34,228 nucleotides of DNA from a virus. Numbering within the stretch: position 1 is the first letter of the stretch; every line of letters starts with the position of its first letter. The stretch is taken from IMG/VR virus record IMGVR_UViG_3300017989_000277, positions 1-34,228 of that record. One strand, 5' to 3'. This document shows positions 2,422 through 23,820 of this stretch, one piece after another. Position numbers and translations under genes: made by a program. The notes beneath the pieces are model-generated. The model made no database searches. It saw nothing but the letters and a program-made list of their open reading frames with translations, and was not told where the DNA came from.

Positions 2422-3234
2422 ATGGCGTACCGAGGGCGCCTCATCCAAAAGTTCCAGGCGGTCATCGCCCCGGTGAGCCCGTACCGCGCACACAGAGCGA
2501 GCGTCCAGTCGACGACTGGCGAGACGTGGGACCTGGCCGCGGCTGGGCTTCCCGGGACGCTGCTCATCGCAGTAGACGGTGCAGCGGCGCAGACAGTCAC
2601 CCTGACCACTGGCGACTTCGCGGATCCGGCTGCGGCCACGGCGTCCGAGGTGGCGGCGGCGGTGTCGACTGCACTCGCCGGTGGCGAGGCGTGGGCCACG
2701 GCGTCCGCCTACATCGTCATCGCGTCGGAGACAGACGACGACGGCACGATCCAGGTGACCGGCGGTACGCTGAACGCGACGCTACTGTTCCCGACAGTAG
2801 AGGTGTCCGGCGGGTATGACCACGTGATGGGCGGGTATCTGCCGTACGACGACGGTACTGTCGAGGGCGCCGTCCCGCGTCGCGAGGCACCATTGGTGAC
2901 CCTCCCATGCCAGCTGGCGCGAGGAGCGTGGGGACGCCAGGCGTCTGGCGCATCCGCCGGCGGGGACGAGGTGGTCGACTTCACAGTCGCCCTCCATCGG
3001 CCTGACCTCGAGGCACAAAGCCTGTTCGATGCGAACGGAGCCCCGCTGTTCCAGCGCGGCGATCGGCTCGTCAAGATCCTCGAGACGACTGGCGACCTTG
3101 TCGAGGCGTTCCCGGATCCGCCGGGCACGTTCGTCGTTGGTGTCACACGCGGCGGGTACGGCCTAGCGTCGCGCGGAGCAAACCGCAAGTTCAACCTGGT
3201 CCTGTTGCAGTGCGCGCGGAGGGATGTCAGGTGA
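2422..3234 (+). CDS. Structural protein carrying an inserted beta-rich repeat domain (copy A)
   Basis: 270 residues starting 3 nt after the previous stop. Residues about 45-125 form one copy of a domain seen in at least three other genes of this window. Its marks are a 'VDGAAAQTVTLTTGDF' start, a 'TASEVAAAV' helix, and a 'GTIQVTGGTLNATLLF' end. The flanking parts (1-40 and 130-270) read as one separate protein with the insert placed between them; the C-terminal part ends in beta-strands and an R-rich tail. Neighbours are a connector and a tail-completion protein, so a neck or adaptor role is likely. I do not recognise the host fold. Confidence 0.55.
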   Translation: MAYRGRLIQKFQAVIAPVSPYRAHRASVQSTTGETWDLAAAGLPGTLLIAVDGAAAQTVTLTTGDFADPAAATASEVAAAVSTALAGGEAWATASAYIVIASETDDDGTIQVTGGTLNATLLFPTVEVSGGYDHVMGGYLPYDDGTVEGAVPRREAPLVTLPCQLARGAWGRQASGASAGGDEVVDFTVALHRPDLEAQSLFDANGAPLFQRGDRLVKILETTGDLVEAFPDPPGTFVVGVTRGGYGLASRGANRKFNLVLLQCARRDVR

Positions 3235-3974
3235 TCAGCATCCGCACGCCGAACCTGGGGCAGACCATCGCGTCCATCCACCAGCAGGATGTCCGCGTTC
3301 GGCAGGCCACTCTACGCGCGACGCGCCAGGCGGCGCACGACCTCCGCACGATCATCGTCACCGGGCTCCGCGACCAGGTGCCGGGCGGGGACTCGATCCT
3401 CCCCTTGCGCCCGTCGACCGTCCTGATGCGCGGGCTCCCCAAGCGGCGCACCTACAACCCGAATCGCCTGGCGGGCCCGGCCCTGGTACGGGCCCCAGGA
3501 CGAGGCGCAGGTGGGCGGTTCACGTCAGGGAGCAACACCTGGCGGATGTCGCGCAAGGCGGGACGCAAGCGCAAGCACCGCAAGCCGCGCCTCGGCGCGA
3601 CGTCGAGCAAGGCCCTCATCAACTCTGGCGACCTGCTCAGATCGATCACTGTGCGCGGGGGAAACCTGCACTACACCGTCGGCGTCCACCGCGGGGCACG
3701 GGGGAAGAAGGGCAACGACCTCGTCAATATCGCGTCCATCCACGAGTACGGCACGAAGCAGTACACCGTGACCGTCTCGGGGCGGATGGCGCGGTTCTCG
3801 CGATTCCTAACCATGATGGGCATCCTGGGCGCGCCGTGGAAGGTGGGGCAGACCCTACGCCGCAAGGTCCCGGCGCGGCCGTTCCTGCGCCCGGGGCGGA
3901 TACTGTGGGAGCGGGACGCGAGCGACCTATTCGCCCGACGCATCGCCGCCGCCGGCGGCTTCCTGGAGGGGTAA
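3231..3974 (+). CDS. HK97 gp10-like / virion morphogenesis tail-completion protein
   Basis: 247 residues, very basic (an R/K-rich stretch about residues 110-125). The end, with 'IHEYGTKQYTV' and later 'VPARPFLRPGRILWERD', matches the conserved C-terminus of gp10-like and gpS-like tail-completion proteins, where an 'ARPF(L/I)RPA' motif is typical. I chose GTG 3231 because GGAGG at 3218-3222 lies 8 nt upstream and GTGA overlaps the prior stop; a GTG at 3210 would add 7 residues. It likely joins the neck and tail tube. Confidence 0.65.
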   Translation: MISIRTPNLGQTIASIHQQDVRVRQATLRATRQAAHDLRTIIVTGLRDQVPGGDSILPLRPSTVLMRGLPKRRTYNPNRLAGPALVRAPGRGAGGRFTSGSNTWRMSRKAGRKRKHRKPRLGATSSKALINSGDLLRSITVRGGNLHYTVGVHRGARGKKGNDLVNIASIHEYGTKQYTVTVSGRMARFSRFLTMMGILGAPWKVGQTLRRKVPARPFLRPGRILWERDASDLFARRIAAAGGFLEG

Positions 3975-3975
3975 C

Positions 3976-4971
3976 GTGGCGGTCCCGACCATCAGCACCA
4001 TCACTCCGTCGTCTGGCCTGACGCGCGGTCGGAATATCGTCCTCATCGCCGGGACCAACTTCCGGCTCCCCCCAACACCGGGGGTCGGCGACCACTCTGG
4101 CGAGCCGGCACAGCAGACCGTCGGCGTCACGTTCGACGGGGTTGCCAGCCCCGAGGCGCACGCGGTCACGGCGTCGCTGGCCCACGTCGAGGTGCCGGCA
4201 TGGGCCGGAGACGTCGACGAGACCGGGGACGTCGTTGTGGCCGTTCAGCTCTCGAACCTCGACGACGCCGGTGTCGTGATCCCAGGTGAGACAGCGTCGG
4301 GGAGCTACACCTACACGCGGGCCAGGCTCTTCACGCGCGCCACGACGTACCGGGTGACTGTGGCGCTCATCGAGCACCTCCGGCGCCACGTCCTCCCGTC
4401 CTCGAGCAAAAGCCCCAGGGTTTTCGCCTCGGTGGCGCGTGACTATCCCGACGAACCCGGTGCGAGCAGCCCCGACAGGGTAGCCCAGGCCGAGCGCCCC
4501 GCGATCCACGTCATCGGCCCGTCGCTCGTAGACGCTCCGGAGTGGGGGAGACGCCACGAGCAAGAGGAGGACGATCCTGGCGACGCGGAGCAGTACATCC
4601 GCACCCAGGTCCAGATCCCGTATCACCTCGAGTACACAATCGACTGCTACGCTGACGAGACCCGGGGGCAAGTGGCGGCGCACGCCCTGGCGCACAACGT
4701 GCGGATGATGGTGCGCGACCTGCCGTCGCTGACGGTCTCGACGAATGCTGACGATCCGACGGCGGACACGGTGACCTACCCGCTTCAGATGGTTACCCCC
4801 GCCTCGTTTGAAACGGACCCGGACCTCGATGGGCGCCACCGGGCGCGCTCAGGCGTACGGGTTCTCGGGGTCCTGGTGGACGACGTAGAGGCGACGACGC
4901 TCGAACGCGGTTGGCGCCTGCTCGACCAGGACTACCCGGTGACTGTGACTTCGGAGGGGTTCGACGTCTAG
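3976..4971 (+). CDS. Tail terminator-like protein with N-terminal IPT/TIG domain
   Basis: 331 residues from GTG 3976, with GGAGGGG just upstream. The N-terminus (about 1-110) looks like an IPT/TIG immunoglobulin fold: 'PTISTITPSSGLTRGRNIVLIAGTNF' has the classic P-x-I-x-x-x-x-P-x-x-G ... G-x-N-F pattern. The remainder has a 'QVQIPYHLEYTIDCYADET' strand pair followed by a helix with HNVRMMVRDLP, like tail-terminator or minor tail proteins that cap the tube. Location directly before the sheath gene fits a tail terminator. The Ig-like domain may be exposed at the neck. The terminator role is inferred from position. Confidence 0.5.
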   Translation: MAVPTISTITPSSGLTRGRNIVLIAGTNFRLPPTPGVGDHSGEPAQQTVGVTFDGVASPEAHAVTASLAHVEVPAWAGDVDETGDVVVAVQLSNLDDAGVVIPGETASGSYTYTRARLFTRATTYRVTVALIEHLRRHVLPSSSKSPRVFASVARDYPDEPGASSPDRVAQAERPAIHVIGPSLVDAPEWGRRHEQEEDDPGDAEQYIRTQVQIPYHLEYTIDCYADETRGQVAAHALAHNVRMMVRDLPSLTVSTNADDPTADTVTYPLQMVTPASFETDPDLDGRHRARSGVRVLGVLVDDVEATTLERGWRLLDQDYPVTVTSEGFDV

Positions 4972-4977
4972 CGCCGC

Positions 4978-5007
4978 TAGACATCGAGCTACCGCCGCTG
5001 ATAGACT
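4978..5007 (+). promoter_or_regulatory. Possible promoter before the tail sheath gene (weak)
   Basis: The 99 bp gap between the terminator-like gene and the sheath holds TAGACA at 4978-4983, 18 bp, then TAGACT at 5002-5007 preceded by an extended -10 TG at 4999-5000. The -35 matches consensus at 5 of 6 bases and the -10 at 4 of 6. This is the largest gap in the first 26 kb, which makes a start of transcription here plausible, but the match is modest. Confidence 0.3.
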
Positions 5008-5070
5008 GGCCGTAACAGGGGCGGTGCCGGTCAACGAACCACGCCCGGGATGGGCGGAGGAGGACAGGCG

Positions 5071-7290
5071 ATGCCCGCTGCTGCCAAGATCGTAATTCTC
5101 GAGGAAAACCCGGCCGTTGTGAACATCGTTGCGTTGCCTACCGCCGTTGCGGGATTTGTGGGCATTGCGGAGCGGGGGACGGTCGGCGAGGCGGTCCTGA
5201 CCACGGACTGGGCCGAGTGGGTCGACGAGTACGGTGGGTTCACGAGCACCGCCGACATGACCCTCGGGGCCTACGGCTTCTACAAGGGCAGCGGCAAGAT
5301 CCTCTGGGGCGTGCGGACGGTGCATTACACCGACATCACCGACCCGAGCACCAGCACCGCTGTCAAGGCGAGCCACAATATCCAGAACGCGGGAACCATC
5401 GCCACGGCGGCCGAGGTCTCGAGCGTGGGTGCGCAGAACTTCACCCTCGCTGACGGGCAGACCCTGACCATCTCGATCGATGGCGCAGGTGCGACGACCG
5501 TGACGTTCAACGCCGCGGCGGGCCACCAGGACACGAACGTTGGCGTCGGTTGGCCCGTGGCCAACGAGGACGGCCTGACCCTCATCCTGGAGGTCGACGG
5601 CGGCGCGTCGCAGACCATCACGTTCGGCGGCGTTGGCGGCGTCTACAGCGCGGCGGAGTACGCCTCGCAGATCAACACGCAGATCATCGGTGCCAGCGCA
5701 GACGCGTCATCCGGCGAGGTGGTGATCACGTCCGACTCCAAGGGCACCGGGTCCTCGATCAACGTATCCGGCGGCACCACGAACGTCACGTTCGCCGCAG
5801 CGGTAGCCGGAACCGGGGACTGCGTCGACATCACGGCGGTCACCGGCGCCGAGGCTGCTGCGGTCATCGATGCCGACATGGCGCCGGAGACCAGCACCAC
5901 GGTCAACGGCGACGGAACGCTGACCATCGAGACCACGGATACCGGCTCCACCGCGACCATCCAGGTCACCGGCGGGACCGCGAATACGGCGTTCGCCTTC
6001 GACACCAACCTCCACACCGGTGTCGACGCGGCCGCGGTCAACACCCTCAAGATCGAGGGCAAGACCGAGGGTGCCTATGCGAACAGCATCAAGGCCGTTG
6101 TCGCGGCGGCCTCCTCGGGGCGCGCGGCGGAGTTCGACCTGCTGGTCCAGGTCTCGGGCGTCACCAAGGAGACGTTCACGAGCCTGACGATGGACGACAC
6201 GGATGTCCGGTTCGTCGAGACCATCGTGAACGCAGACGGGACGGGGTCCAACCTCATCACCGCGACCGACCTGGACGCCGGTGGTACGCCGCTTTCAGAC
6301 CGTCCGGTCAACGGCACGCACGGCTTCCTGACTGGCGGCAACGACGGGCTCGCTGCTATCGCGGATACCGACTACGTCGGAGACTCGGCAGGGCCGACTG
6401 GGCTCTACTGCCTCGATACGATCGACAACCTGCGCATCGTCGTCATCCCGAGCAAGGCGTCGGCGACGATCTACAGCGGGATCAAGACCTACTGCACGAC
6501 CTATCGCGAGCGCAGCTGCTTCGGTGTCCTGTCGACCCCGGCGGCTTCGGCTGTCGCGACCACGGCGGCGATGGTCACCTTCATCGAGACCACGACCGCG
6601 ATGGTGAACTCGAGCGAGGAGCTGGCCGTTGCTTGGCCGCGCATCAAGGTCGCCAACCCCGATACCGCCGCCTACGGCGACGGGACGTACATCTACGTCG
6701 ACCCGGCCGCATGGTGGGCGGGGACGATGGCGCGCAACGACGACACGCGGATTGGCGGTGTCTACGAGGCGCCCGCCGGGATCGACTTCGGCGTCATCGA
6801 GGGTTGCCTCGGCCTGGAGGTCGAGGAGGTCAACCGGCTGGGCAAGCGCGAGTTGCTCGCCCGAGTCCTGGTCAACCCCATCCGGTACCACAGCCGGTAC
6901 GGCTACTACGTCGACGGGCACTACACGCTCAAGGAGACCGGGAACTGGCCGTCCATCCCAGAGAGCCGCGGGCGGATGCATATCGCCGAGACGCTGAAGC
7001 TGAACCTCGAGTGGGTGAAGCACCGCAGGAACACGCCGGCCCTCCGTGCCCGTGTCGAGCGGTCTATCCGCTCGTTCCTCGAGCGCGAGCGCATCGACGG
7101 CGCGTTCGCCAGTGATCTGGCGAGCGAGGCCTACTTCGTCGACGTCAGTGCCAAGCTGAACCCGCCGGCCGTCGCCCAGGCGGGCAAGCTGAAGATCAAG
7201 GTGGGCCTCAACTTCGGTCGCCCGATCAACGAGGTCGAGGAAATCATCACCAAGGACACCCGGGCCTACGTCGAGAGCCTGGCCGCCTAA
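5071..7290 (+). CDS. Contractile tail sheath protein with nested inserted domains
   Basis: 739 residues from ATG 5071, chosen over ATG 5050 because GGCGGAGGAGGA ends 6 nt upstream of it. The sheath forms the contractile outer tube. The N-terminal part (1-110) has 'PTAVAGFVGIAERGTVGEAV', typical of sheath domain I, and residues about 540-735 form the conserved C-terminal sheath domain ('WWAGTMARNDDTRIGGVYEA', 'VNRLGKRELLARVLVNPIRY', 'VDVSAKLNPPAVAQAGKLKI'). Residues about 129-313 hold an insertion made of the repeat domain, with a complete copy apparently placed inside another copy. The insert probably faces outwards on the tail. The tube gene follows 13 nt later. Confidence 0.92.
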   Translation: MPAAAKIVILEENPAVVNIVALPTAVAGFVGIAERGTVGEAVLTTDWAEWVDEYGGFTSTADMTLGAYGFYKGSGKILWGVRTVHYTDITDPSTSTAVKASHNIQNAGTIATAAEVSSVGAQNFTLADGQTLTISIDGAGATTVTFNAAAGHQDTNVGVGWPVANEDGLTLILEVDGGASQTITFGGVGGVYSAAEYASQINTQIIGASADASSGEVVITSDSKGTGSSINVSGGTTNVTFAAAVAGTGDCVDITAVTGAEAAAVIDADMAPETSTTVNGDGTLTIETTDTGSTATIQVTGGTANTAFAFDTNLHTGVDAAAVNTLKIEGKTEGAYANSIKAVVAAASSGRAAEFDLLVQVSGVTKETFTSLTMDDTDVRFVETIVNADGTGSNLITATDLDAGGTPLSDRPVNGTHGFLTGGNDGLAAIADTDYVGDSAGPTGLYCLDTIDNLRIVVIPSKASATIYSGIKTYCTTYRERSCFGVLSTPAASAVATTAAMVTFIETTTAMVNSSEELAVAWPRIKVANPDTAAYGDGTYIYVDPAAWWAGTMARNDDTRIGGVYEAPAGIDFGVIEGCLGLEVEEVNRLGKRELLARVLVNPIRYHSRYGYYVDGHYTLKETGNWPSIPESRGRMHIAETLKLNLEWVKHRRNTPALRARVERSIRSFLERERIDGAFASDLASEAYFVDVSAKLNPPAVAQAGKLKIKVGLNFGRPINEVEEIITKDTRAYVESLAA

Positions 7291-7303
7291 CTAGGAGGAC
7301 GCC

Positions 7304-7762
7304 GTGGGACAGCCCCGTAACAACTACATGCCCGGTCTGTTCCGGGTGGAGATCGACGGCTTCGACTCCAAGAATTTCACGTCCGCAGGGCCGTTCAAGA
7401 AGAACGTCGGTGTCGCCACGAGCCGCACCGGGCCAGACCTGCTCGAGGTGCACGAGCCGAACGGCAAGAACACGTGCGAGGACCTCGTCCTGAAGCGCCC
7501 GCTCTCCGCCGACAAGGACATGGAGAACCTGTACAAGCGGACCCTCGACGCGCGCACCGGACGCGGCGAGAACATCGACGAGTTGCGCATCACCATCGAC
7601 TGCGTTCAGATGAACCACGACCACTCCGACCTCGAGCGCTTCCGGAATTACGACTGCTTCGTCTTCGACTACGAGGTCGACCCGTTCGACGTCGACGCCG
7701 ACGGCCCGCGGATGGAGACGGTGACCATCAAGCGGTCCGACTTCGAACGCCTGAGCGTCTAG
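7304..7762 (+). CDS. Tail tube protein
   Basis: 152 residues from GTG 7304, with AGGAGG 5 nt beyond the sheath stop. Size, position right after the sheath, and strand pattern ('PGLFRVEIDGFDSKNFTSAG' at the start, then 'ISFDY'-type strands such as CFVFDYEVDPFDVDADG and 'METVTIKRSDFERL' at the end) fit the T4 gp19/phage tube family. It would polymerise as the inner tube inside the sheath. No insert domain is present, unlike in the sheath. Confidence 0.85.
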   Translation: MGQPRNNYMPGLFRVEIDGFDSKNFTSAGPFKKNVGVATSRTGPDLLEVHEPNGKNTCEDLVLKRPLSADKDMENLYKRTLDARTGRGENIDELRITIDCVQMNHDHSDLERFRNYDCFVFDYEVDPFDVDADGPRMETVTIKRSDFERLSV

Positions 7763-7795
7763 TAGCTCGGGCCACAACCCAGATAGGGGGCACAG

Positions 7796-8656
7796 ATGAC
7801 GGAAGTATCCCTTCCCTCCGGGCTGCGGGTTGACCTGCGGCCCCTCACGCTAGCCGACGACGCTGTCGTCTTCGACGGGTCCGACGAGCGGACGTTCCCC
7901 GAGGTCGCCGTCGGCCTCATCGGCGCCGCGACCGAGCGCGTCCTCGATCCGGGGCCGTATCCGTTCGAGGATCGGGTGGACTGGAACAAGGTGCTACCTG
8001 GTGACCTGCGCGCTGCGGCCCTCGCGTTCCGGCGCCTCAACGACCCGGACGGGGCGATGCTCGCCGTGGACGCCGTCGACCCCTCTCGGCCCACCGATCC
8101 TCCCATCGAATGGGACATCGATATCCGCATGATGTCCGACGGCGGCGACATCATCGACTACCCGCTCGAGGACGGCGCTGCGGAGCGTATCCGTGGCGGG
8201 ACGCCGTTCGAGGCGAAGCTCGGCGACCGGCTCGTCCAGTTCCGCCATATGACCGTCGAGGACTGGGCTGCCAACGAGCGAGGGGCGGGCGCCCTAGACG
8301 ACAGTAAGGCCACCGCAGAGGACAAGGCGCGCGTCCGACACGACCAGCTGTACCGGCGCATCATTGCCGTCGAGGGCGTTGACAGGATGGACGTTCGGTC
8401 GTGGATACGCAAGCTCACCTGGGCGGAGGCAACGGAACTCGAGACCGCGATGAACGACGCCGTCGGAGGCGGGATCGATCAGGCCGTCGACATCACCACC
8501 GACGGCGGGCGGACGCTCACCGGTGTCATCCCTTTTACTGTGCTGCTACTCATGCGCATTCCGAAGGCCCCCAAGGGGCGGCGAGAGAAGCGCAAGGCGG
8601 AAATCCTGGCTGCCAGAGAATCAGCGAACTCGGGTGGCTCAGGCGAAGATGGCTAG
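7796..8656 (+). CDS. Tail assembly chaperone (gpG-like, zero-frame product)
   Basis: 286 residues, lying between tube and tape measure, the standard place of tail assembly chaperones. The first 60 residues ('LPSGLRVDLRPLTLADDAVV') are like the N-terminus of T4 gp26-type/chaperone families. The zero-frame protein ends in a charged, Gly/Ser-rich tail (KAPKGRREKRKAEILAA then GGSGEDG). In the -1 frame a conserved-looking coding stretch continues to the tape-measure start with no start codon of its own, so this gene probably makes both a short and a frameshifted long form, as lambda G and GT do. Confidence 0.75.
   Translation: MTEVSLPSGLRVDLRPLTLADDAVVFDGSDERTFPEVAVGLIGAATERVLDPGPYPFEDRVDWNKVLPGDLRAAALAFRRLNDPDGAMLAVDAVDPSRPTDPPIEWDIDIRMMSDGGDIIDYPLEDGAAERIRGGTPFEAKLGDRLVQFRHMTVEDWAANERGAGALDDSKATAEDKARVRHDQLYRRIIAVEGVDRMDVRSWIRKLTWAEATELETAMNDAVGGGIDQAVDITTDGGRTLTGVIPFTVLLLMRIPKAPKGRREKRKAEILAARESANSGGSGEDG
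8530..8536 (+). other. Candidate -1 frameshift heptamer C CCT TTT
   Basis: In the chaperone frame the bases read as the last base of ATC followed by CCT TTT, an exact X XXY YYZ slippery heptamer. Slipping by -1 moves the ribosome into the frame that ends at 8899-8901. A small 5 bp hairpin (GCCCC-CAA-GGGGC, 8567-8579) lies 30 nt downstream, further than is usual for a stimulator. The zero frame keeps better third-position GC up to its stop, so a later slip site is not excluded; I saw no better in-frame heptamer between 8536 and 8656. Confidence 0.5.
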
Positions 8657-8901
8657 GCGAGGAGCCGGCGGGGGAGGTCGTCCTGGTCAAGGCGGACCCA
8701 ACTGCCGTCGTCCTGTCTCGCCGCGCGCGCTGGGACTTCAGGTGTCGCGCGGTCCAGCGGTCTCCGGAGCTGACGTCCTGGAACATCGGGTGGGCAGAGA
8801 CGCTCACGCTGACGCCGAACGAGGCCGTCAAGCTCTACCGCAGGATGGTCTCGCTCGCCAAGCGCGAGTCGAAGGCCCTGGAGAAGCTGGCTAACCAATG
8901 A
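8536..8901 (+). CDS. Frameshifted C-terminal half of tail assembly chaperone (gpT-like)
   Basis: This is the -1 frame extension of the 7796 gene; it has no ATG or GTG start after the zero-frame stop until deep in the segment, and is in frame 7796 minus 1. Its last 80 residues look like real protein ('VVLVKADPTAVVLSRRARWD', 'LTSWNIGWAETLTLTPNEAV', 'KLYRRMVSLAKRESKALEKL'). Its TGA overlaps the tape-measure ATG (ATGA at 8898-8901). If the slip is at 8530-8536 the fusion would be about 368 residues. The first 40 residues in this frame would be a poorly conserved linker. In known systems the T part contacts the tape measure. Confidence 0.6.
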   Translation, partial: YCAATHAHSEGPQGAAREAQGGNPGCQRISELGWLRRRWLGEEPAGEVVLVKADPTAVVLSRRARWDFRCRAVQRSPELTSWNIGWAETLTLTPNEAVKLYRRMVSLAKRESKALEKLANQ

Positions 8902-11372: not shown

Positions 11373-11375
11373 ACG

Positions 11376-13632: not shown

Positions 13633-14261
13633 CCAGCGACGTCCACAACCCAGAGGGCATTCGCTGTGCCCGCGAGCGCGGAGACAGGATCTGGGGTCTG
13701 TACTCCGGCGAGGTCGTCCTGCGCGAGGGGGATGACGGCGCGCCGAATACGCGTGACGGAGTCATCCTGGGGCGGTGCAAGGTACGCATCCCTGGTCTGT
13801 CCGACGAGATGGCGTGGTGCTATCCACGCGGAAGCGGACGCGACCGCGGCGGGCGCCAGGAGTCGCCGCCCGTCGGCGCGAAGGTGCTGATCCAGTTCGT
13901 CGACGGCGATCCGGACCAGCCGAGGTGGGAGTACGACCACGCCGACCAGTCCGAGGCCTACCCGGAGCGCGAGCACGCCGACGTGATGGTCGACGGCGAC
14001 ATGAATTTCAGATTCATCCGCGACCGCCGCGAGGGTCAGCAGTACGCGAGTTTCCAGGTCGTCAAGCAGATCGGCAGCAGCGAGCAGACCGTTGCCGAGT
14101 TGACGTTCATCATCACAGACGGGGATACAGGAGGCTGTTCCGTTCGTCTCCACGGCGTCACCGGCCTGGCGCTCGAGAGCGACGGCGTCGTCCAGGTCGC
14201 CGGCGGGTCCGGGACGACGATCGATAATCGCCCCGTCTTCCCGACAAGCAAGGTGATCTGA
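13629..14261 (+). CDS. Baseplate spike protein, gpV / gp5 OB-fold type
   Basis: 210 residues with ATGA overlap to the hub. Residues about 25-95 form an OB-like domain ('SGEVVLREGDDG', 'GRCKVRIPGLSDEMAWCYP', 'PPVGAKVLIQFVDGDPDQPR'), the standard 'G-r-v-k-V-r-i-P' and 'P-x-v-G-x-x-V-l-V-x-F-x-x-G-d-x-x-x-P' motifs of gpV/gp5/VgrG spikes. The C-terminus has short beta repeats ('GVTGLALESDGVVQVAGGSG') that may make a needle base. No lysozyme insert as in T4 gp5. Confidence 0.8.
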   Translation: MTSDVHNPEGIRCARERGDRIWGLYSGEVVLREGDDGAPNTRDGVILGRCKVRIPGLSDEMAWCYPRGSGRDRGGRQESPPVGAKVLIQFVDGDPDQPRWEYDHADQSEAYPEREHADVMVDGDMNFRFIRDRREGQQYASFQVVKQIGSSEQTVAELTFIITDGDTGGCSVRLHGVTGLALESDGVVQVAGGSGTTIDNRPVFPTSKVI

Positions 14262-15031: not shown

Positions 15032-15402
15032 AGGACCAAATAGGAGAGGGGCTCACGTGGCCCGTACAGACTGACGGCAAGGGTGGGCTCGCCGAGGCCA
15101 GCGGGTTCGATCTACTCGACGCCGACGTGGCGCTGCTCATCGGTATCCAGCAGGGCGAGCTGCGCTGGGACATGCGGCGCGGGACCAAGGATATGCGCCT
15201 CCTACACCGGAAGTACAGAGGCGACGTCCGCAACGCCATCACGCGGGAACGGGTCGTCGACGTTCTGTCTCGCGACGAACCACGCGTTCGCCCACTCGGT
15301 GCGACCGCAGAACAGATTGCCGACAAGCTCCGCATCGTGACAACGTACGCCCCCCTGGGATACACTCGGGGCGAGGGGCGGAGCACCGTAACGGAGGTGT
15401 AG
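15025..15402 (+). CDS. gp25-like baseplate wedge protein
   Basis: 125 residues, overlapping the previous gene by 7 nt. It fits the GPW/gp25 family in length and in its strand-helix order: 'GEGLTWPVQTDGKGGLAEAS' at the start, a 'DVALLIGIQQGELRWDMRRG' helix, and 'ALLHRKY'-type turn (here RLLHRKYRGDVRNAI), ending with 'PRVRP' and beta-strands. gp25 links wedge to sheath at the base of the tail. The next gene, J-like, is its usual partner. Confidence 0.8.
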   Translation: MLKDQIGEGLTWPVQTDGKGGLAEASGFDLLDADVALLIGIQQGELRWDMRRGTKDMRLLHRKYRGDVRNAITRERVVDVLSRDEPRVRPLGATAEQIADKLRIVTTYAPLGYTRGEGRSTVTEV

Positions 15403-15403
15403 G

Positions 15404-16945
15404 GTGAGCCTGCCCCAGCCGAACGACTATACTGCCCGCGACTACGACACGCTGAAGGCGCGTCTACGGTCGCTGTGGCTCTCGGTCTTCCCGACCTACC
15501 CCGTGGACGCCAACGGCAACCCGGGCAACATCCTACGCGAGTTGTTCGCGCACGTCGGCGACACGTTCCACTACTACCTCGACGCCATGGCCCGCGAGAC
15601 CCGATGGGGGTCCGCCAGAACGCGCAAGGCCATGATTTCGCTCGGGAAGGTGTACGGATTCGAACTCCAGGGTGCGTCGGCGGCGACCTGCGATGTAACG
15701 CTGTCGAGGTCCGCGCTGGCACCAGGAGAGACGCTATCGATCGCGGCTGGCACGGTGGTGAAGACATCGGCGGTCAACAGCCCGGTACGCGGCGAGACGC
15801 AGGCCGCGCTCGATCTCTCGGATGGGGTGGCATCCTCTGGCGACGTCGCCTGGGAGCACTCCGAGACGAGGTCGGAAACCTTCGCCGCCAACGGACAGCC
15901 GAACCAGGAACTGTATCTCGGGTACGCGCCGTATCTAGACGGGTCCATCGGCATTACCACGGCTGCTGGGACGTGGTCGGAGGTCGACAACCACCTATCC
16001 TCGGACCCGACTGATCTGCATTTCACGATTCGCGTCGACCAGAACGACCACGCATGGGCGCGCTGCGGCGACGGGTCGCTCGGCGCACTGTGGGACGGGT
16101 CTATCGCTGTCGCGTATAAGACCGGCGGAGGTGTCTCGGGCAACGTTGATGCTGGTGCTCTCGTGGAAATCGAGGGGACGTTCGTCGGGAGCCTCGGTAC
16201 TGCCGTGACGCTGACGGCCACCAATGCATCCGGTGCGTCCGGCGGCGAGGCACGCGAGACGGTCAACGCCGCGCGGGACCGCGCGCGGTCGTACATCACG
16301 GCCCTGTCGAGAACGGTCAGCCGCTCGGACTACGAGACGCGTGCACTCCAGGTCTCTGGCGTCGGCCGCGCGCTCATGCTGACGAGCGACGATACTACAG
16401 ACATCGACGAGAACCGCGGTCGCCTGTACATCGTTCCGACCAACGGAGGGACCGCGTCGTCGGCGCTGCTCGCTGCGGTCATGAACGAGATCGACGTCAA
16501 CTACCCGCCGACCATTACGTTCCAGTACGACGTACTCACTGCGGTTTATCAGACGGTCGACGTCGAGGTTCGCGGTGCACTGGCGCAGGGGTACACCTGG
16601 GCGACGGCCCAGACGCTCGTCGACCAGGCCCTCTCCGAGCTGTTCGAGCCGATCGTCAGCCGGACACGGACCGTCGAGGGCGTCCAGCTGACGCTGGGCG
16701 AGGCGAACCCATACGTAGACTTCGGGTACAACTACAAGGACGAGGACGGAGACCCGGCTGGCGAGCTGGCATGGAGCGACGTCTACAACATCGTTCGCGA
16801 CCTTGCGTGCTTCCGCAAGCTGGCGCCGGGTGACGACGGGTTGAAGCTCAACAGCCAATCAGACGACGTACTCCTTTCCCTGCATAGATTCCCGGCCCTC
16901 GGGTCGGTTACGCTCCGCGACGAGACGGGGGCGGCGGTGTCCTGA
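15404..16945 (+). CDS. Baseplate J-like wedge protein
   Basis: 513 residues from GTG 15404, directly after the gp25-like stop. N-terminal 'YTARDYDTLKARLRSLWLSV' and 'NPGNILRELFAHVGDTFHYY' are typical of gpJ/gp6-like wedge proteins. Middle beta segments include 'LAPGETLSIAAGTVVKT'. The region about 290-320 with 'ARDRARSYITALSRTVSRSD' and 'YETRALQVSGVGRALML' is the conserved J family helix-turn. Wedge assembly around the hub is the expected role. Third in a gp25-J-gpI ordering, although lectin genes intervene before gpI. Confidence 0.85.
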   Translation: MSLPQPNDYTARDYDTLKARLRSLWLSVFPTYPVDANGNPGNILRELFAHVGDTFHYYLDAMARETRWGSARTRKAMISLGKVYGFELQGASAATCDVTLSRSALAPGETLSIAAGTVVKTSAVNSPVRGETQAALDLSDGVASSGDVAWEHSETRSETFAANGQPNQELYLGYAPYLDGSIGITTAAGTWSEVDNHLSSDPTDLHFTIRVDQNDHAWARCGDGSLGALWDGSIAVAYKTGGGVSGNVDAGALVEIEGTFVGSLGTAVTLTATNASGASGGEARETVNAARDRARSYITALSRTVSRSDYETRALQVSGVGRALMLTSDDTTDIDENRGRLYIVPTNGGTASSALLAAVMNEIDVNYPPTITFQYDVLTAVYQTVDVEVRGALAQGYTWATAQTLVDQALSELFEPIVSRTRTVEGVQLTLGEANPYVDFGYNYKDEDGDPAGELAWSDVYNIVRDLACFRKLAPGDDGLKLNSQSDDVLLSLHRFPALGSVTLRDETGAAVS

Positions 16946-18903
16946 TGACGGTCACGAATCCCGGGTTCGAGGACCGAGGGGCGGCGGTCGACGGGGGCGA
17001 CACGCTGACGGGGTACGTCGCGAGCGCGGCAGTGTACCCGGTTGCACCCCTCGGCGCCGGGACGACGTTAACGATATCGGTCGACGGTGGGACAGCGCAG
17101 ACGGTCACGTTCGCCGGCGGGGAGACGACCGCCGCCGAAGTAATGCACGCGATCAATGGACAACTCTCCGGAGGGTACTCGACGAGCGGATCCGTCCCGA
17201 TAGTGTGGACCGCAACCGCTGGCCCGACGGGGTCGATCCAGGTGACCGGCGGGACGGCAAACGCGACGCTCTTGTTTTCGACGACGGCAGTCGAAGGGGA
17301 TGACGGCGGGTTCGAGGCGGGTGTGCTCGCGCACCTCGTCGTCCCGGCAGGATTGACCGCGACGCTCGTTGCGGGCGCGAGGACGGGCGGCGGAGGGTCG
17401 ACGGTACTCGACCTCACAAAGACGGCCGGTGCGGGAGCGCTTGCCGTGCGCTTGCCGTTCCCGCAGATGGCAGGCGGGCGCGTGTACCGGATCACCGGGT
17501 GGGCGCGCGGGCTGGACGGCCTCGCCGCCGAGGTGGTCGACGGCGTGACGACAATCTACCAGGGGACGGCGGCGTCGACAGAGTGGGAGGCTTTCGACGT
17601 GACGTTCGTCGCGGCGGCCGGGCAACTCTTGTTTGGCGTCGAGGCCGGGGCGGCGGCCAACCAGCACGTCCAGTTTGACGACGTGGCGATATCGTCCGTG
17701 CACCGTCTTGGGGAACCGGGCCCGTGGAAGACGTCGGCGTTCTCAGGACAGGGGGGGGCGGCCTTGTTCAACGACCCAGAGATGTGGTCTCTTGGGTTCG
17801 ACGACAGCGGGTCCGGGCACCTGATCGCGAATGAAGCGTCCGGCGTCGAACAGTTCAAGGCCGGTTGGGACGACGTCCATCTATACCTCGCGGCGCTGTC
17901 CTCGCCGACGTCGTACCAGTTCACCTCGTCGTCTCCAAGCTACGCGAGCGTCCTCGAGGGATTCGAGGCGTGGAACGGCGCAAACTGGCTCGACTCGCCG
18001 ACGGTAACCGACCCGAGCGCGACGACCCCACCCACGCTGTGGCACGGCGCGTGGTGGAAGCAGTATCCGGCGTCGGAACTGGCGCTTGACGCAGAGGGGT
18101 TCGACGAGGGCTGGACCACGTGGGGCGCGGCGTTCCGCGCCCCACGCCAGCTGAACGGCGTAGTCCGTGGCGACTATATCGACCCGTCGACGGCCCCTGG
18201 GTCGTTTACGTACGAGATCGGGGACAACAACAAGAGACTGCGACTGCTCGTGGCGTCTGGGGTGTCACTCCAGGTCATCGAGTTGGTCCTCACCCCGGGC
18301 ACGTACGGGCATGCAGCACTCGAGGCACACCTGAACGCGGTGCTCGCGGCTGCCCTCGGAGGGTCGGCTGCGCCGTGGGCGTTCGACCTGGACGCCGAGG
18401 GAACCGACGTGCGTATGTCGTTCGGCTGGGACGGAGTTACGGACACCAGCGGCGTCGTCAACGCGGCTGTGTTTCTCGATGTCGACAACGACTACTACCG
18501 CAAAGACCTGCGTTTTCATGCCGGGTTCTACAACCTTGGCACGCGTGCCGAGATGAACGAAGTCGTCTACCCGGGCGACGCTGCGCCTCCGATTCCTGCG
18601 GGATGGACGGCGGACGACCGGCTGTTGATTGACCTGTGGACGGGGGTTGTCTTCTCGAGCGACACGGACCCTCTCGCGGCGACGATCGAGGTATTCGAGG
18701 GCAGCGGCGCGGGGATGCTTTTCGATTCGGCCGCGACGGCTGGTATCTATTACGAGCGGTTTTACATCGACATTTGGTTCGGCGCGGCGTGGAAGTCCGC
18801 GTACGGGCCAGGAGACCTGACAGACTTCGCGTGGGGCGGCGGGTTCGGTGGACCCTTCGAAGACTTCGTCGACACGCGGTGGCCGAGCGAGTTGTACCCA
18901 TAG
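16945..18903 (+). CDS. Carbohydrate-binding-module protein with inserted repeat domain (copy C)
   Basis: 652 residues, TGATG overlap with the J gene. The first residues, 'VTNPGFED', are the usual opening of a CBM4/9-type module; residues about 36-115 are a copy of the repeat domain ('TLTISVDGGTAQTVTFAGGE', ending GSIQVTGGTANATLLF). The CBM-like strands then resume (GRVYRITGWARGLDGLAAEV, 'TEWEAFDVTF', 'HVQFDDVAISSV'). From about residue 255 on a further unknown beta-rich part has many Trp and Tyr. It likely sits on the baseplate and binds a surface sugar. The insertion inside the CBM is seen directly; sugar binding is inferred. Confidence 0.6.
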   Translation: MTVTNPGFEDRGAAVDGGDTLTGYVASAAVYPVAPLGAGTTLTISVDGGTAQTVTFAGGETTAAEVMHAINGQLSGGYSTSGSVPIVWTATAGPTGSIQVTGGTANATLLFSTTAVEGDDGGFEAGVLAHLVVPAGLTATLVAGARTGGGGSTVLDLTKTAGAGALAVRLPFPQMAGGRVYRITGWARGLDGLAAEVVDGVTTIYQGTAASTEWEAFDVTFVAAAGQLLFGVEAGAAANQHVQFDDVAISSVHRLGEPGPWKTSAFSGQGGAALFNDPEMWSLGFDDSGSGHLIANEASGVEQFKAGWDDVHLYLAALSSPTSYQFTSSSPSYASVLEGFEAWNGANWLDSPTVTDPSATTPPTLWHGAWWKQYPASELALDAEGFDEGWTTWGAAFRAPRQLNGVVRGDYIDPSTAPGSFTYEIGDNNKRLRLLVASGVSLQVIELVLTPGTYGHAALEAHLNAVLAAALGGSAAPWAFDLDAEGTDVRMSFGWDGVTDTSGVVNAAVFLDVDNDYYRKDLRFHAGFYNLGTRAEMNEVVYPGDAAPPIPAGWTADDRLLIDLWTGVVFSSDTDPLAATIEVFEGSGAGMLFDSAATAGIYYERFYIDIWFGAAWKSAYGPGDLTDFAWGGGFGGPFEDFVDTRWPSELYP

Positions 18904-18912
18904 GAGGGACTG

Positions 18913-19638
18913 ATGGCGGATACTGACTGGGGAGACGTAAGCAGCATCCTGACGAGCGCGGACCTGGCGTTCGGCGTAACCGGTGCGCTGACCCCGCCTA
19001 ACGGCGGAGGGTCGTTTGTCTACGGGTACAATAGCCTCGACGGGACGGTATCAGGTGCGCACGCGAAGTTTGTGGACGATACCAACTTCAAGCCAACCGG
19101 GACTGGGCCGGCCAACCCCGACGGTGGTGGGAGCATCTCCGGTGCAATCAAGCGCCTGCCGCTCGCATCCTACACTGGGTTCACGCCGTACCTATTCGGG
19201 TGTGCGCAGGGGTCGCCGCCGGCGGCGACCAACGCGGCGTACATGATCGCCCTGTCCGACGAGAGCCCATATCGTATCGTCTTGGCCAAGGCAACGCTCA
19301 ATACGACGCTGTCTGCCGGGTCGACGAGCATCCTTGGGCAGTCGACGGCGCAGTACGCGATTGCCGACGACGACTGGCACCACGTGCGGCTCGACGTCAT
19401 CGTCCAACCCAACGGCGACGTTTTGCTACAGGCGTTCGCGTCCGACCTGTCGGCGAACGCCGTGGGGTCGCCATCGTGGGCGGCTATCCCTGGGTTGTCA
19501 GACGTCATCGACGACCGCCTCCAGATCGAGACCGGGAGCGCGCCGCTCCTCGGAGGTTACTGGGGCTTCGGGTTCGCTCTGTCCGAGGCGCTCAACGCCG
19601 GGGCCGCGTTCGACGCGATCCGCGCGAGCTACGCGTAG
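18913..19638 (+). CDS. Small LamG/concanavalin-like adsorption protein
   Basis: 241 residues with AGGAGGG upstream. A jelly-roll pattern is visible: 'FAFGVTG'-type strands at the start, 'SPYRIVLAKATLNTTL' in the middle, 'DDDWHHVRLDVIVQPNGDVL' (the W-H-H-v-x-l strand of LamG folds), and 'GGYWGFGFALSEALNAGAAF' at the end. It begins a run of three baseplate-associated surface proteins between the CBM and gpI-like genes. Likely receptor or polysaccharide binding; ligand unknown. Confidence 0.6.
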   Translation: MADTDWGDVSSILTSADLAFGVTGALTPPNGGGSFVYGYNSLDGTVSGAHAKFVDDTNFKPTGTGPANPDGGGSISGAIKRLPLASYTGFTPYLFGCAQGSPPAATNAAYMIALSDESPYRIVLAKATLNTTLSAGSTSILGQSTAQYAIADDDWHHVRLDVIVQPNGDVLLQAFASDLSANAVGSPSWAAIPGLSDVIDDRLQIETGSAPLLGGYWGFGFALSEALNAGAAFDAIRASYA

Positions 19639-19641
19639 GCT

Positions 19642-20766
19642 ATGCCGGATCGCATCCTCCAGGACCTCGGGTGCCGGGCCGGGCGCGTCGCGTCTGGGTT
19701 TGGGTACGAGTACGTCCTGGGTGCGCTCGACGACGACGAGGTTCTCGCCCTGTCTGACGGGGACTACGCCGAGGTAACGCAGCGCGTCGACCTGACGGAC
19801 GTCGATATCGTCACAGCTACGATGACATCCGCTGGGGTGTCCATGGGCACGGCGAGCACACCGGCGCGCATGGAGGTCGAGAGCGACACGCTCCTGTTCT
19901 ACCCCATGGACCGTGCCACCTACGCCGGCGCGACCAACTGGGTCTCCACCGCGCTCGACCTCGTTCCGATCGGCGACGTCGAAGTCGGCTCGGAGACGTA
20001 CAGCCCTGCGCAGGGGCCGTGCCGGACGATACCCGTGGGCAGCACGACCGGGTACCTGCGCGGCGCCAACGACCCGCAAGCATTCAACCCCGACCCCCTG
20101 ACGGCATGGACTGTCGAGTGGTGGCAGAATTTCGACTGTGACTCCCAGGTGCTCAGCACGTCGGACCCGGTCGTTTTTGACTGCCTATCCGGCGCGAACG
20201 GGTTCAAGATCTACTGGGACGGCGTGGTCGGCAGCCACCAGTGGCGGCCAACGGTCGAGTTCCCGGGGGCGACGATCTGCCTCGTGCCGGCAGGCGTCAT
20301 CTTGGCAAACCCAGGATGGCACCACTACGCGTTCGTCTACGACGGAGCCCTCGCCGGGGTGAACCGCCTCGTGTACTACGTGGATGGTGTTGCCGTTGGG
20401 AATCCTCTGGTCGCCCCTCCCGCGAGTGTGCCGGCGCCGTCCGTGGGGACGGTGGTCCAGGTGGCAGACCCCGACCTGACTGGCGACATCGACCAGCTAC
20501 GCGTCAGCAACACGGCACACGCGGCGCCGACGGTCCTCGCGGCGTATCAGGCGTGCACGGGGACTGTCACGACCTACAACTACCGGTGGCGCCAGCAGAT
20601 CCTCGTTGACTCTACAGTTCTGGCCGAGCGCACAATCGCGCCCGCCGAGGCCCGGGCGATGGACGACTTCCGCGTACCGGTCCGCAACGCGGACATCGGC
20701 GACGGGTGGGGGCCTGTTGTCGGCCCGCACGATGTCGCGTTCCGCCTCTACCTCGAGGCGTACTAG
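19642..20766 (+). CDS. LamG-domain adsorption protein
   Basis: 374 residues, 3 nt after the previous stop. Residues about 140-310 form a clear LamG domain: 'PLTAWTVEWWQNFDCDSQVL', 'GFKIYWDG', 'NPGWHHYAFVYDG', 'RLVYYVDGVAVGNP', and 'LTGDIDQLRVSNTAHAAP'. The first 80 residues (beta) and last 60 ('LAERTIAPAEARAMDDFRVP') are flanking parts, the latter perhaps a contact to the baseplate. The tight spacing shows co-translation with neighbours. Confidence 0.7.
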   Translation: MPDRILQDLGCRAGRVASGFGYEYVLGALDDDEVLALSDGDYAEVTQRVDLTDVDIVTATMTSAGVSMGTASTPARMEVESDTLLFYPMDRATYAGATNWVSTALDLVPIGDVEVGSETYSPAQGPCRTIPVGSTTGYLRGANDPQAFNPDPLTAWTVEWWQNFDCDSQVLSTSDPVVFDCLSGANGFKIYWDGVVGSHQWRPTVEFPGATICLVPAGVILANPGWHHYAFVYDGALAGVNRLVYYVDGVAVGNPLVAPPASVPAPSVGTVVQVADPDLTGDIDQLRVSNTAHAAPTVLAAYQACTGTVTTYNYRWRQQILVDSTVLAERTIAPAEARAMDDFRVPVRNADIGDGWGPVVGPHDVAFRLYLEAY

Positions 20767-20775
20767 GAGACTCCG

Positions 20776-21720
20776 ATGCCGAGCACCCCACTCCTGTCCA
20801 TCACCTACCCCGCAGAGAACCAGGACCCGTACTGGACGACCGCGCAGTCGACATGGCTAGCGATTGACAACTGGCTCGGTGCGACACGCGAGGACGGGAT
20901 GATCCACGTCACCGGCGGCGGGTCTGTGACGGCTACCGGCGGGAACGTCACGTGGACGGCGGACCTGCATATCTACTTCCCGCTCGCCGGGTCTCGCGTT
21001 GTCGTCTCGGCCAACACGGTTGCTTGCGCCGATGGTGAGTTTCTGTACATCACCGTTCCCACACGACCGGTGGGGGACCAGACTCTTACCATGTCGGCTG
21101 GGAGCAACGTTCCGACGGTCAACGACATCGTGATAGGGATGCGCATCGGATACCACGTCTATCTGCGCGGACAGCCGCTCCCGTTTGCCATGGAGTCGCA
21201 CTTCCTTCCGATCGATGGGGCCATGGACGGGCTCACTGCGGCGCCCGCCGCAGCGGCACTCCATACCATCAGCTGGGGTCAGGTGACAGCGCGGAAGTTC
21301 GACAGCGCGGCCATCGAGGACGTCGTGTACCAGTGGGGTGTTCCGCTCGGGTGGTTCGGGTACGCTCCCATCGGTCTTCAGTTCGCTGTCGATTTCGTTA
21401 TCACCGAGGCGGTGGCCCCGGCGGCGACGGAGGGGATACACTTCGATGCGGCCATCCGCTCGTACGCAGACGGAGATAGCCTGAACCAGGGTGCGCCGAC
21501 GTGGTCTGGCGTGAGCATCTCGGACCTGAGCGGGAACTCGCAGCACGACCGCGTCGTCACGCCGTGGACGAACATGACCTGGGCGAGCGTCGCCGAGGGG
21601 CACCTTGCCAACCTCTACCTGCGGCGCGATCCGACGCACGCAGACGACGACTACGTACAGGACGTCGGCGTCACCGGGCTGTGGGTCCGGTATGCGCGGC
21701 GCCTGCGGACGGAGTACTAG
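20776..21720 (+). CDS. Unknown beta-rich tail protein
   Basis: 314 residues, starting 9 nt after the previous stop with AGGAG. It is not recognised. The N-terminus ('PLLSITYPAENQDPYWTTAQ', 'STWLAIDNWLGATRED') looks like the start of fibre or baseplate-attached proteins found at this position in other phages. The rest is beta-rich with no membrane segment. Position between a LamG protein and gpI suggests a fibre or fibre connector. Confidence 0.55.
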   Translation: MPSTPLLSITYPAENQDPYWTTAQSTWLAIDNWLGATREDGMIHVTGGGSVTATGGNVTWTADLHIYFPLAGSRVVVSANTVACADGEFLYITVPTRPVGDQTLTMSAGSNVPTVNDIVIGMRIGYHVYLRGQPLPFAMESHFLPIDGAMDGLTAAPAAAALHTISWGQVTARKFDSAAIEDVVYQWGVPLGWFGYAPIGLQFAVDFVITEAVAPAATEGIHFDAAIRSYADGDSLNQGAPTWSGVSISDLSGNSQHDRVVTPWTNMTWASVAEGHLANLYLRRDPTHADDDYVQDVGVTGLWVRYARRLRTEY

Positions 21721-21723
21721 CCC

Positions 21724-23820
21724 ATGGCGATTACGGTCGACCAGCTCCTGGCTACCCTCTTGGTCGACGACGCCGCGACCGTCGCGGTCACGGGACAGTT
21801 TGCCGTCATCCTCCGCACCCCGGAGCCCGACGAGGACGACATTGCTGTCGATGCCCCGGTGTCCCTGCGCGTCGTCGATCTCGACGGCAACCCGGCGGTG
21901 GGCTGGGCTCACAGCGTGGTTGTCTACGCCGACGTGGGCGCGGGACCGGTGCCCGTCTACGTGGGCGGGGCGTTCACTGGGGACTGGAACCAGCCGGGCT
22001 CGAGCACGGCGTCACACGGCGGCGCGGACCCCTACGCCTTTTTCGATCTGACGGCTGCGCACGGGACCGACTTCGCGTCCCGGGCGACAGTCAAGATCAC
22101 AGTGGTCGTCAACGCAAACGCCCTCATCGAGGTCTACTCGTTCCGCGTGGTAGACGTCGAGCGCCCGTCTCTGCTATCGGCGGAGGCGGTCGGCCAGATG
22201 ACGGTCCGTGTCCGGTTTGACGACGAGATGGGGGCCACTGCCCTCGACCCCGGCAACTACACGATCCAGACCGAGAACGTAGATCCGGACGTCGGTGTCT
22301 CGCTGACTGTCGAGTCCGTGGCGCTCGCCGATACGGGGTCGGGATACGGCCACCTGCCATACGGGCACCACCCGTACGGGCACGGGTACTGGGACTACGA
22401 TCTCACGGTCAACTGGGAGATGACGCCGAACTGCCCGTATCGCGTTATCTGCGACGACTCCGTCGTGACCGATGCGTCTGGCAACCTACTCATCCGCCCG
22501 GCCGAGGCGGTCTTTTCTGGATACGCTCCGGATACGCCTGCGACCCGGCGCTGGGATCTGTACGAGATGCTCCCCGAGGTGCTACAGGCGGCGGACACCA
22601 CGCAGGATCTGCGGCGCATCATCAACGTATTCCAGGAAACGACCGACCTGCTACTGTACGACATCGACCACTCACTCGACCAGGTCGATCCGGACACGGC
22701 GACTGACGAACAGATCGCCCTGATGCTGTGGGACTTGGGCAACCCGTGGGACGTCGACGAGTACGACCTGACAGCTGCGCAACAGCGGCTACTGACGACG
22801 CTGCTCGTCCCCATCTATCGCCTGCGCGGGACGGCCGAGGGCATCGAGTCGGCCGTCTTCCTGCTGACCGGCATCACCGTGTCCGTCGTCGACTACCTGT
22901 CCGACCAGTGGCAGCTGGGATACGACGCGCTGGGCACCGGGCAGGTGGCCTACCTGACGGCGGGCAGCGCGGAGACCTACGACTTCACCGGGGCCCCGCT
23001 GACGCTCACCGTGGAGGTCGACGGAGGCGGCGCCCAGACGGTCACATTCCAGCCGTCGGACTTCTTGTCGCCCACCGCGGGGACGGCGGAGGAGGTGGCC
23101 GCGCGTCTTACTGCCGATCTGACGGACGCCGAGGGTTACGTCCATCGCGGCGGCGTGCCGGCCGAGGTGACGTGCACAGGGACCGAGCCGTTCGCGGCGA
23201 CGGCGGGAGACGACCTCCAGCTGTCTGTCAACGGCGCGGCGGCTCAGACGTTGACCCTGTCGGCGTCCGACTACGCGGCGTCCGGCTCGGTTACTGCTGA
23301 CGAAATCGCCGACTGGCTGAACGACCACCTCGTCGGCGCTTCGGCGTCGGCGTCCGGTGGCAGTATAACAATCGCGACCGACCTGACCGGTGCGACCGCG
23401 ACGATCCAGGTGACCGGCGGGACCCTCGTTGGCATCATGACCTGGCCCGGCGCCGCCCAGGCGGGAGCCGATACGCCGCGGGCCGGCGTATTCTCTACGA
23501 CGCCCGGGCCGGACGGGCGCATCGAGGTCACCGGGGGCACCGCGAATGCCGTTCTCGACTTCGGGACAGAGCCCTCCGTTGCCATCGGCGGGTGCAAGTT
23601 GGGGCCGTCGGCGTCTCGCGCCCGTTATTGCTTCGATCTGGAGACGAGTGCTACCCTGACCACAGAGGAGGAGCGCTTGGTCCGCCAAATCGCCGAGGAA
23701 CTGAAACCCGCCCATACCCATCTGATTTCTATCCGTCCGCCTGCGGCCGTTACGGTCCACCCGGACGGCTGGCACCTGGGATGGAGCAAGCTCGGCACCA
23801 CGACGGTGCTGGGCCCGTAG
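21724..23820 (+). CDS. gpI-like tail protein split by inserted repeat domains (copy D)
   Basis: 698 residues. Residues about 1-270 are N-terminal beta domains ending in a His/Tyr/Gly stretch (YGHLPYGHHPYGHGY, about 207-221). Residues about 276-390 are the gpI family core: 'LYEMLPEVLQAADTTQDLRR', 'DIDHSLDQVDPDTATDEQIA', 'PIYRLRGTAEGIESAVFLLT'. The end of that family, with LTTEEERLVRQIAEELKPAH, lies at about 643-663. Between them, residues about 424-617 are repeat-domain material, apparently a full copy placed inside another. gpI joins the wedge to the fibres. Confidence 0.75.
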   Translation: MAITVDQLLATLLVDDAATVAVTGQFAVILRTPEPDEDDIAVDAPVSLRVVDLDGNPAVGWAHSVVVYADVGAGPVPVYVGGAFTGDWNQPGSSTASHGGADPYAFFDLTAAHGTDFASRATVKITVVVNANALIEVYSFRVVDVERPSLLSAEAVGQMTVRVRFDDEMGATALDPGNYTIQTENVDPDVGVSLTVESVALADTGSGYGHLPYGHHPYGHGYWDYDLTVNWEMTPNCPYRVICDDSVVTDASGNLLIRPAEAVFSGYAPDTPATRRWDLYEMLPEVLQAADTTQDLRRIINVFQETTDLLLYDIDHSLDQVDPDTATDEQIALMLWDLGNPWDVDEYDLTAAQQRLLTTLLVPIYRLRGTAEGIESAVFLLTGITVSVVDYLSDQWQLGYDALGTGQVAYLTAGSAETYDFTGAPLTLTVEVDGGGAQTVTFQPSDFLSPTAGTAEEVAARLTADLTDAEGYVHRGGVPAEVTCTGTEPFAATAGDDLQLSVNGAAAQTLTLSASDYAASGSVTADEIADWLNDHLVGASASASGGSITIATDLTGATATIQVTGGTLVGIMTWPGAAQAGADTPRAGVFSTTPGPDGRIEVTGGTANAVLDFGTEPSVAIGGCKLGPSASRARYCFDLETSATLTTEEERLVRQIAEELKPAHTHLISIRPPAAVTVHPDGWHLGWSKLGTTTVLGP

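Follow-up and report, generated by a model that had tools for sequence, protein, structure and literature searches.

An accessory domain in six copies, two pairs of them self-nested, in four virion genes of an uncultured myophage

The 34,228-nucleotide stretch of DNA analysed here (the window) is IMG/VR virus record IMGVR_UViG_3300017989_000277 (G000), which comes from an uncultured phage and carries a myophage structural cassette of 66% GC. An original prediction, made from the letters of the window, had described a roughly 75-residue unit in four virion genes (starting at 2422, 5071, 16945 and 21724) and had proposed that it was a mobile or recombining domain. When the window was searched with a profile built from 50 units, with matches reported at E <= 1, eight stretches were found, which resolve into six units in these four genes (neck, sheath, g16945 and gpI); there was no match in the window beyond the eight. 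The prediction was thus right about the genes and not about the number of copies, as the sheath and gpI genes hold two units each, and by the profile the unit is ~100 residues long. The genes and units are as follows.

2422..3234, + strand: neck-position virion gene (270 aa) with one unit; matches phrog_14218 over aa 143-262; syntenic orthologs occur with and without the unit
2503..2811, + strand: unit 1 (neck); profile positions 2-103, E 4.7e-30
5050..7290, + strand: tail sheath gene (746 aa; alternative ATG at 5071); phrog_17610 tail sheath, E 2.5e-27; AlphaFold2 (AF2) model matches solved sheaths, Z up to 37.7
5416..5520, + strand: N-terminal half of unit 2 (sheath outer); profile positions 2-36, E 3.5e-8
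5542..5796, + strand: unit 3 (sheath inner), nested in unit 2; profile positions 5-95, E 1.8e-24; own beta-beta-alpha-beta-beta-beta set in the model
5812..6021, + strand: C-terminal half of unit 2 (sheath outer); profile positions 34-103, E 7.4e-17
16945..18903, + strand: virion gene g16945 (652 aa) with one unit, downstream of baseplate J; syntenic counterparts in related phages
17044..17301, + strand: unit 4 (g16945); profile E 1.0e-26
21724..23820, + strand: gpI-like tail gene (698 aa) with a nested pair; weak match to PF09684 Tail_P2_I (16.1 bits, under the cut-off of 20.6); aligned with three relatives
22957..23148, + strand: N-terminal half of unit 5 (gpI site B outer); profile positions 3-65, E 2.2e-18
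23167..23469, + strand: unit 6 (gpI site B inner), nested in unit 5; profile E 1.9e-29; AF2 confidence mostly 90-98; missing at this place in L024 and L121
23476..23574, + strand: C-terminal half of unit 5 (gpI site B outer); profile positions 68-100, E 4.1e-8

The copies within the window are alike at the protein level (blastp E 3e-13 to 1e-4), and the best profile E-values, those of the neck, gpI inner, g16945 and sheath inner units, rule out chance or low-complexity similarity. In the sheath, the profile is matched by two complementary halves in the order 2-36, whole unit, 34-103, and in gpI in the order 3-65, whole unit, 68-100; judged by sequence, each of these two proteins contains one unit split by another. 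Tandem duplication was considered in place of nesting and ruled out, both by the order of complementary N-terminal half, whole unit and C-terminal half at the two sites and, for gpI, by the undivided outer unit of the relatives L024 and L121. In the sheath the splitting unit occupies the hairpin-helix loop that follows the first hairpin, and in gpI it lies behind the helix; because these loops differ, the two nestings are probably separate events. The sheath units span aa 123-324 of 746 and are inserted inside the core, which is matched on both sides of them (model residues 27-742). The label of carbohydrate-binding module (CBM) given earlier to g16945 was not confirmed, as PHROG and Pfam scans of this protein gave no family.

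Orthologs were compared in phage records that are syntenic with the window. The neck unit is present in the window and in the L024 phage and absent from the L018 phage and from G010, the syntenic orthologs measuring 265 aa with the unit and 170 and 172 aa without it. Two sites that are empty in the window are filled in relatives:

14028..14033, + strand: empty site in g13629 (gpV position); in alignment A10 a unit is present here only in the L018 phage
22228..22233, + strand: empty gpI site A; in alignment A6 a unit is present here in L018, L024 and L121

At gpI site B, the outer unit is found in all four phages (the window, L018, L024 and L121) and the inner unit only in the window and L018. 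The sheath pair is present in all syntenic phages compared. The L024 phage has a clear counterpart of the g16945 unit at the same place, and the two share the motif YPVAPxGAG...FAGGETTA. In the g3976 family (phrog_16236) of TIG proteins, a unit is present in the L140 member and absent from that of the window. The filled and empty orthologous sites of the neck, gpV and gpI (two sites) indicate that the unit has been gained or lost as a module. The earlier claim of one domain set into proteins with different cores is supported. As a separate observation, a different short module around STGNDGxYTV (L154, L156) was seen in two of the related phages: in the L018 phage it lies in the outer hairpin of gpI, and in the L024 phage in the protein that corresponds to g16945.

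The fold of the unit was approached through models. For the nested region of gpI, an AF2 model was built on an alignment of 22 rows; two further alignments (A7 and A8) were dropped because MAFFT had merged outer and inner units. The inner gpI unit is predicted with block means of the predicted local distance difference test (pLDDT) mostly at 90-98, and in VIA-align comparisons it matched the XM1 sheath (Z 12.5, root-mean-square deviation 2.2, 104 residues), Vibrio cholerae FlaA and FliD (both Z 9.9, over 94-98 residues) and the sheaths of Pa193 (Z 9.4) and E217 (Z 8.8). The weaker matches to FlgK (Z 5.8) and the T7 nozzle (Z 5.9) fall below a Z of 8, where a match may reflect a common arrangement alone. 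For this well-modelled copy, the predicted fold is therefore that of the accessory lobe of myophage sheaths such as XM1 and of the outer domains of flagellin and FliD, and through homology with the gpI inner unit the fold of the XM1 insertion domain (InD) probably extends to the sheath units. The AF2 model of the sheath (14 sequences, pLDDT 83, predicted template modelling score 0.64) shows an inner set of strands 176-182, 188-192 and 197-199, helix 201-211 and strands 215-220, 223-228 and 237-241, flanked by an outer set of strands 137-143 and 149-153 on one side and helix 266-277 and strands 281-285, 291-298 and 303-308 on the other. The sheath core of the model is the part that matches solved contractile sheaths; the whole-model VIA run on this protein was dominated by such cores and says little on the lobes alone.

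Profile comparison by hhalign of the unit with the hook-IN segments of FliD gave a probability of 92.5 (P 4.9e-7), and Pfam PF07196 matched 3 of 50 units weakly (best E 0.014). A profile search of PDB sequences returned nothing significant; a search with a single unit gave the XM1 sheath at E 0.022, later backed by the fold comparison. The window units matched no Big or Ig family at the curated cut-off, Big_3_3 matched two of 50 relatives (best E 1.3e-4), and in the VIA comparison of the gpI unit no Ig match ranked near the top, which still leaves room for a distant Ig relation. There is no curated Pfam or NCBIfam family for the unit.

The prediction had also noted that the DNA at the end of the unit is nearly identical between copies. 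The 17-mer ATCCAGGTGACCGGCGG occurs, as the prediction had it, exactly at 2749, 17236 and 23404 and with one mismatch at 5959, with 0.01 matches expected by chance; another copy with two mismatches was seen at 20902-20918 in g20776, outside any unit. Near-identity of DNA as a sign of recombination did not hold up over the whole unit: across all 15 unit pairs, identical residues share their codon 213 times against 207.4 expected from the codon usage of the window, and nucleotide identity from unit to unit is 47-55%. Under codon usage, the exact 17-mer in three of the four IQVTGG copies has P ~0.002, for a stretch that was picked post hoc, and two longer local DNA matches have P 0.06 and 0.04. 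We read the DNA likeness as mostly the product of peptide conservation and codon bias.

The tree of copies that the prediction had called for was built from 209 units and 102 columns and is unrooted and poorly resolved. Labels for the place in the host protein change 45 times on it over all groups, against a shuffled mean of 145, and labels for the contig change 141 times against a shuffled mean of 143.5 (lowest 138). The units thus cluster by place and not by phage, which argues for inheritance in place, with no spread within single genomes. In the sheath, 37 of 50 open reading frames (ORFs) show the N-terminal half, the unit and the C-terminal half, and ten more show the unit and the C-terminal half, so this nesting is of old date and has kept its position. 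Conservation in place with no sign of exchange, which had been named as one outcome that would speak against a mobile domain, was accordingly found in the case of the sheath, whereas the neck, gpV and gpI do not show it. A recent-looking tandem duplicate is present in L007, where units 1 and 2 are 67% identical. The idea of a mobile or recombining domain is thereby divided: the unit behaves as an insertable module, and codon identity, contig labels and the retention of the sheath pair speak against recent exchange among the copies of this phage.

The explanation that we hold with good confidence is that the unit is an old, promiscuous accessory domain that was inserted repeatedly into loops of tail proteins and then inherited vertically, with a role in surface contact as the most likely one. 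By this account, loops of the tail proteins of this phage lineage would have received, repeatedly and over a long period, in-frame insertions of a self-contained domain of ~100 residues and of the flagellin/FliD outer-domain type (strand-strand-helix-strand-strand-strand), with its termini close together. Being compact and tolerating insertion at its own loops, the domain would also have taken copies of itself. Once placed, the copies would pass vertically and diverge, with no exchange now. Each would most likely form a beta-rich lobe on the outside of the tail, where it may link adjacent subunits laterally, add to the bulk of the virion exterior or touch the host surface with low affinity, presumably with no part in catalysis. 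Exposure of the units at the surface of this phage is likely by analogy with solved sheaths and flagella, and we infer the contact function and the route of insertion.

Several points weigh against this explanation. Gain and loss are indistinguishable at the filled and empty sites, and 103 of the 206 inner branches of the unit tree are open at 102 columns. The alignment beneath the gpI model merges some outer and inner rows and the C-terminal half of the outer unit has a pLDDT below 50, so the gpI nesting rests on the sequence and the relatives and not on the model. Gene conversion may have left its mark in the short codon excess at the IQVTGG motif.

Relatives of the unit were sought more widely by pattern scans (alignments A1 and A4), which gave 41 and then 80 (the best of 149) phage loci and 30 bacterial loci, and the host proteins were grouped by masked comparison of 149 unit-bearing ORFs. 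Of these, 50 fall into a sheath cluster, 50 into a baseplate cluster (Baseplate_J PF04865, phrog_6), 19 into a flagellar and eight into a gpI cluster, besides many single proteins; units were found in sheath, baseplate J, gpI, PKD and TIG proteins. The flagellar members are FlgE and FlgK by Pfam and NCBIfam. Among Planctomycetota, 40 of 199 genomes have a unit at E <= 1e-6, most of the proteins not being classified singly; six genomes examined whole have two units each, and their classified loci are FlgE and FlgK. Identity between flagellar and phage units is mostly ~45-60%, with a minimum of 36%. In L118 (7751-12061), a 1437-aa ORF contains a nested pair of the sheath type (44% identical over 226 residues) and, outside residues 706-926, has no Pfam, NCBIfam or sheath match, so that by sequence the pair appears to have been transplanted as a block. 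With the whole sheath or gpI protein as query for close relatives, one near-identical contig and nothing, respectively, were retrieved, and in annotated phage genomes the matches were limited to a protein of Myxococcus phage Mx1 and to distant sheaths of Streptomyces phages, the latter without the unit part. The window sheath is covered nearly whole, unit region included, by phrog_15814 (738 positions), labelled as of unknown function.

Kinship of this fold across phages and flagella was already known. The XM1 paper (PMC10457771) describes a single insertion domain in the tail sheath protein gp6 (7kh1), reports that by Dali it resembles FliD D3 and suggests that it was captured from the host; the Adele paper (PMC12846349) lists relatives of a lateral sheath domain among nozzle, auxiliary capsid, FliD and flagellin proteins, and the crassvirus atlas (PMC10172136) notes that an auxiliary capsid protein contains a FliD-like domain. 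The sheath units resemble the XM1 InD in forming a lobe of the same fold in the N-terminal part of a contractile sheath, whereas the InD is a single copy in one protein and was called unique to XM1, and here four proteins hold six copies in total, of which two are nested, and the unit has relatives at the sequence level. In the Adele and crassvirus papers, as here, one fold recurs in several virion proteins and flagella, but these are structural notes across phages and do not deal with multiplicity per phage, self-nesting, filled and empty sites or hook proteins. The flagellin hook IN motif (PF07196), flagellin D2 and FliD D2-D3 share the fold (Z up to 9.9) and may have a distant kinship at the profile level, while the phage units have an extra C-terminal segment, IQVTGGTAN...GF. 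Promiscuous Ig-like domains of phages (Fraser et al. 2006, as cited in PMC10684548) and the extra beta-sandwiches of sheaths are likewise accessory beta domains found across unrelated virion proteins and optional between relatives, but the fold of the unit appears to be a different one, with a helix, and the copies in the window have no Ig family match at a curated cut-off. A literature search of partial coverage, which is not proof of absence, gave no report of self-nesting, of six sequence-alignable copies per phage, of filled and empty orthologous sites or of FlgE/FlgK units; multiplicity, self-nesting, filled and empty sites and the sequence-level link to flagellar hooks appear to be what is new here.

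A captured flagellar part, the unit having entered phages from host hook or cap proteins as proposed for the XM1 sheath domain, is possible although unlikely. The Planctomycetota FlgE/FlgK units lie on long contigs beside other flagellar matches, and the fold matches to flagellin and FliD and the distant profile match to FliD agree with such an origin; the phage units, however, are more varied in place and class, and, with the tree unrooted and the sequences short, Planctomycetota could also be recipients from phages. It is rather doubtful that the units are adhesion or receptor-contact domains whose copy number tunes attachment: they do sit in gpI, neck and fibre-like proteins, and a survey of 112 sheaths found extra beta-sandwich domains away from the tube and proposed a stabilising or adhesion role (PMC9230969), but most copies are in structural wall proteins (sheath and baseplate J) and a search of the units for carbohydrate-binding families was negative. 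A recent cassette spread within the phage by recombination at conserved DNA is very improbable: the exact 17-mer in three genes and the recent-looking tandem copy of L007 speak for it, but it is largely contradicted by the lack of a whole-unit codon excess, the low nucleotide identity, the absence of clustering by phage and the sheath pair kept in place.

The presence of the unit in the flagellar hook proteins of some bacteria as well suggests that phage tails and flagella draw on a common pool of surface parts. More tentatively, the units may form a self-nesting family common to phage tails and flagellar hooks, which moves between virion proteins over evolutionary time, inserts into itself at preferred loops, travels as nested blocks and has crossed between phages and Planctomycetota FlgE/FlgK. 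A lineage with six alignable copies, two nestings and filled and empty sites allows the course of in-frame insertion into an essential self-assembling wall protein, and the reason for it, to be studied directly, and the FlgE/FlgK kinship offers a sequence-level test of exchange between two unrelated helical machines that face the same outside. Given that the unit has no curated family and that the sheath family which contains it, phrog_15814, carries no functional label, a named domain model would improve the annotation of many metagenomic phages.

Two further bacterial proteins contain units, one from a deltaproteobacterium, with motifs of MopE and thrombospondin-3 (L128:1673-3949), and one a cyanobacterial Sortilin-Vps10 protein (L149:2072-5227), and the unit is therefore not confined to phages and flagella. 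Elsewhere in the window a second shared module was noted: g28158 ends in ~104 residues that share 57% identity with aa 702-803 of g23830, and the DNA of this module is 78% identical over 85 bases (26153-26237 against 28642-28726).

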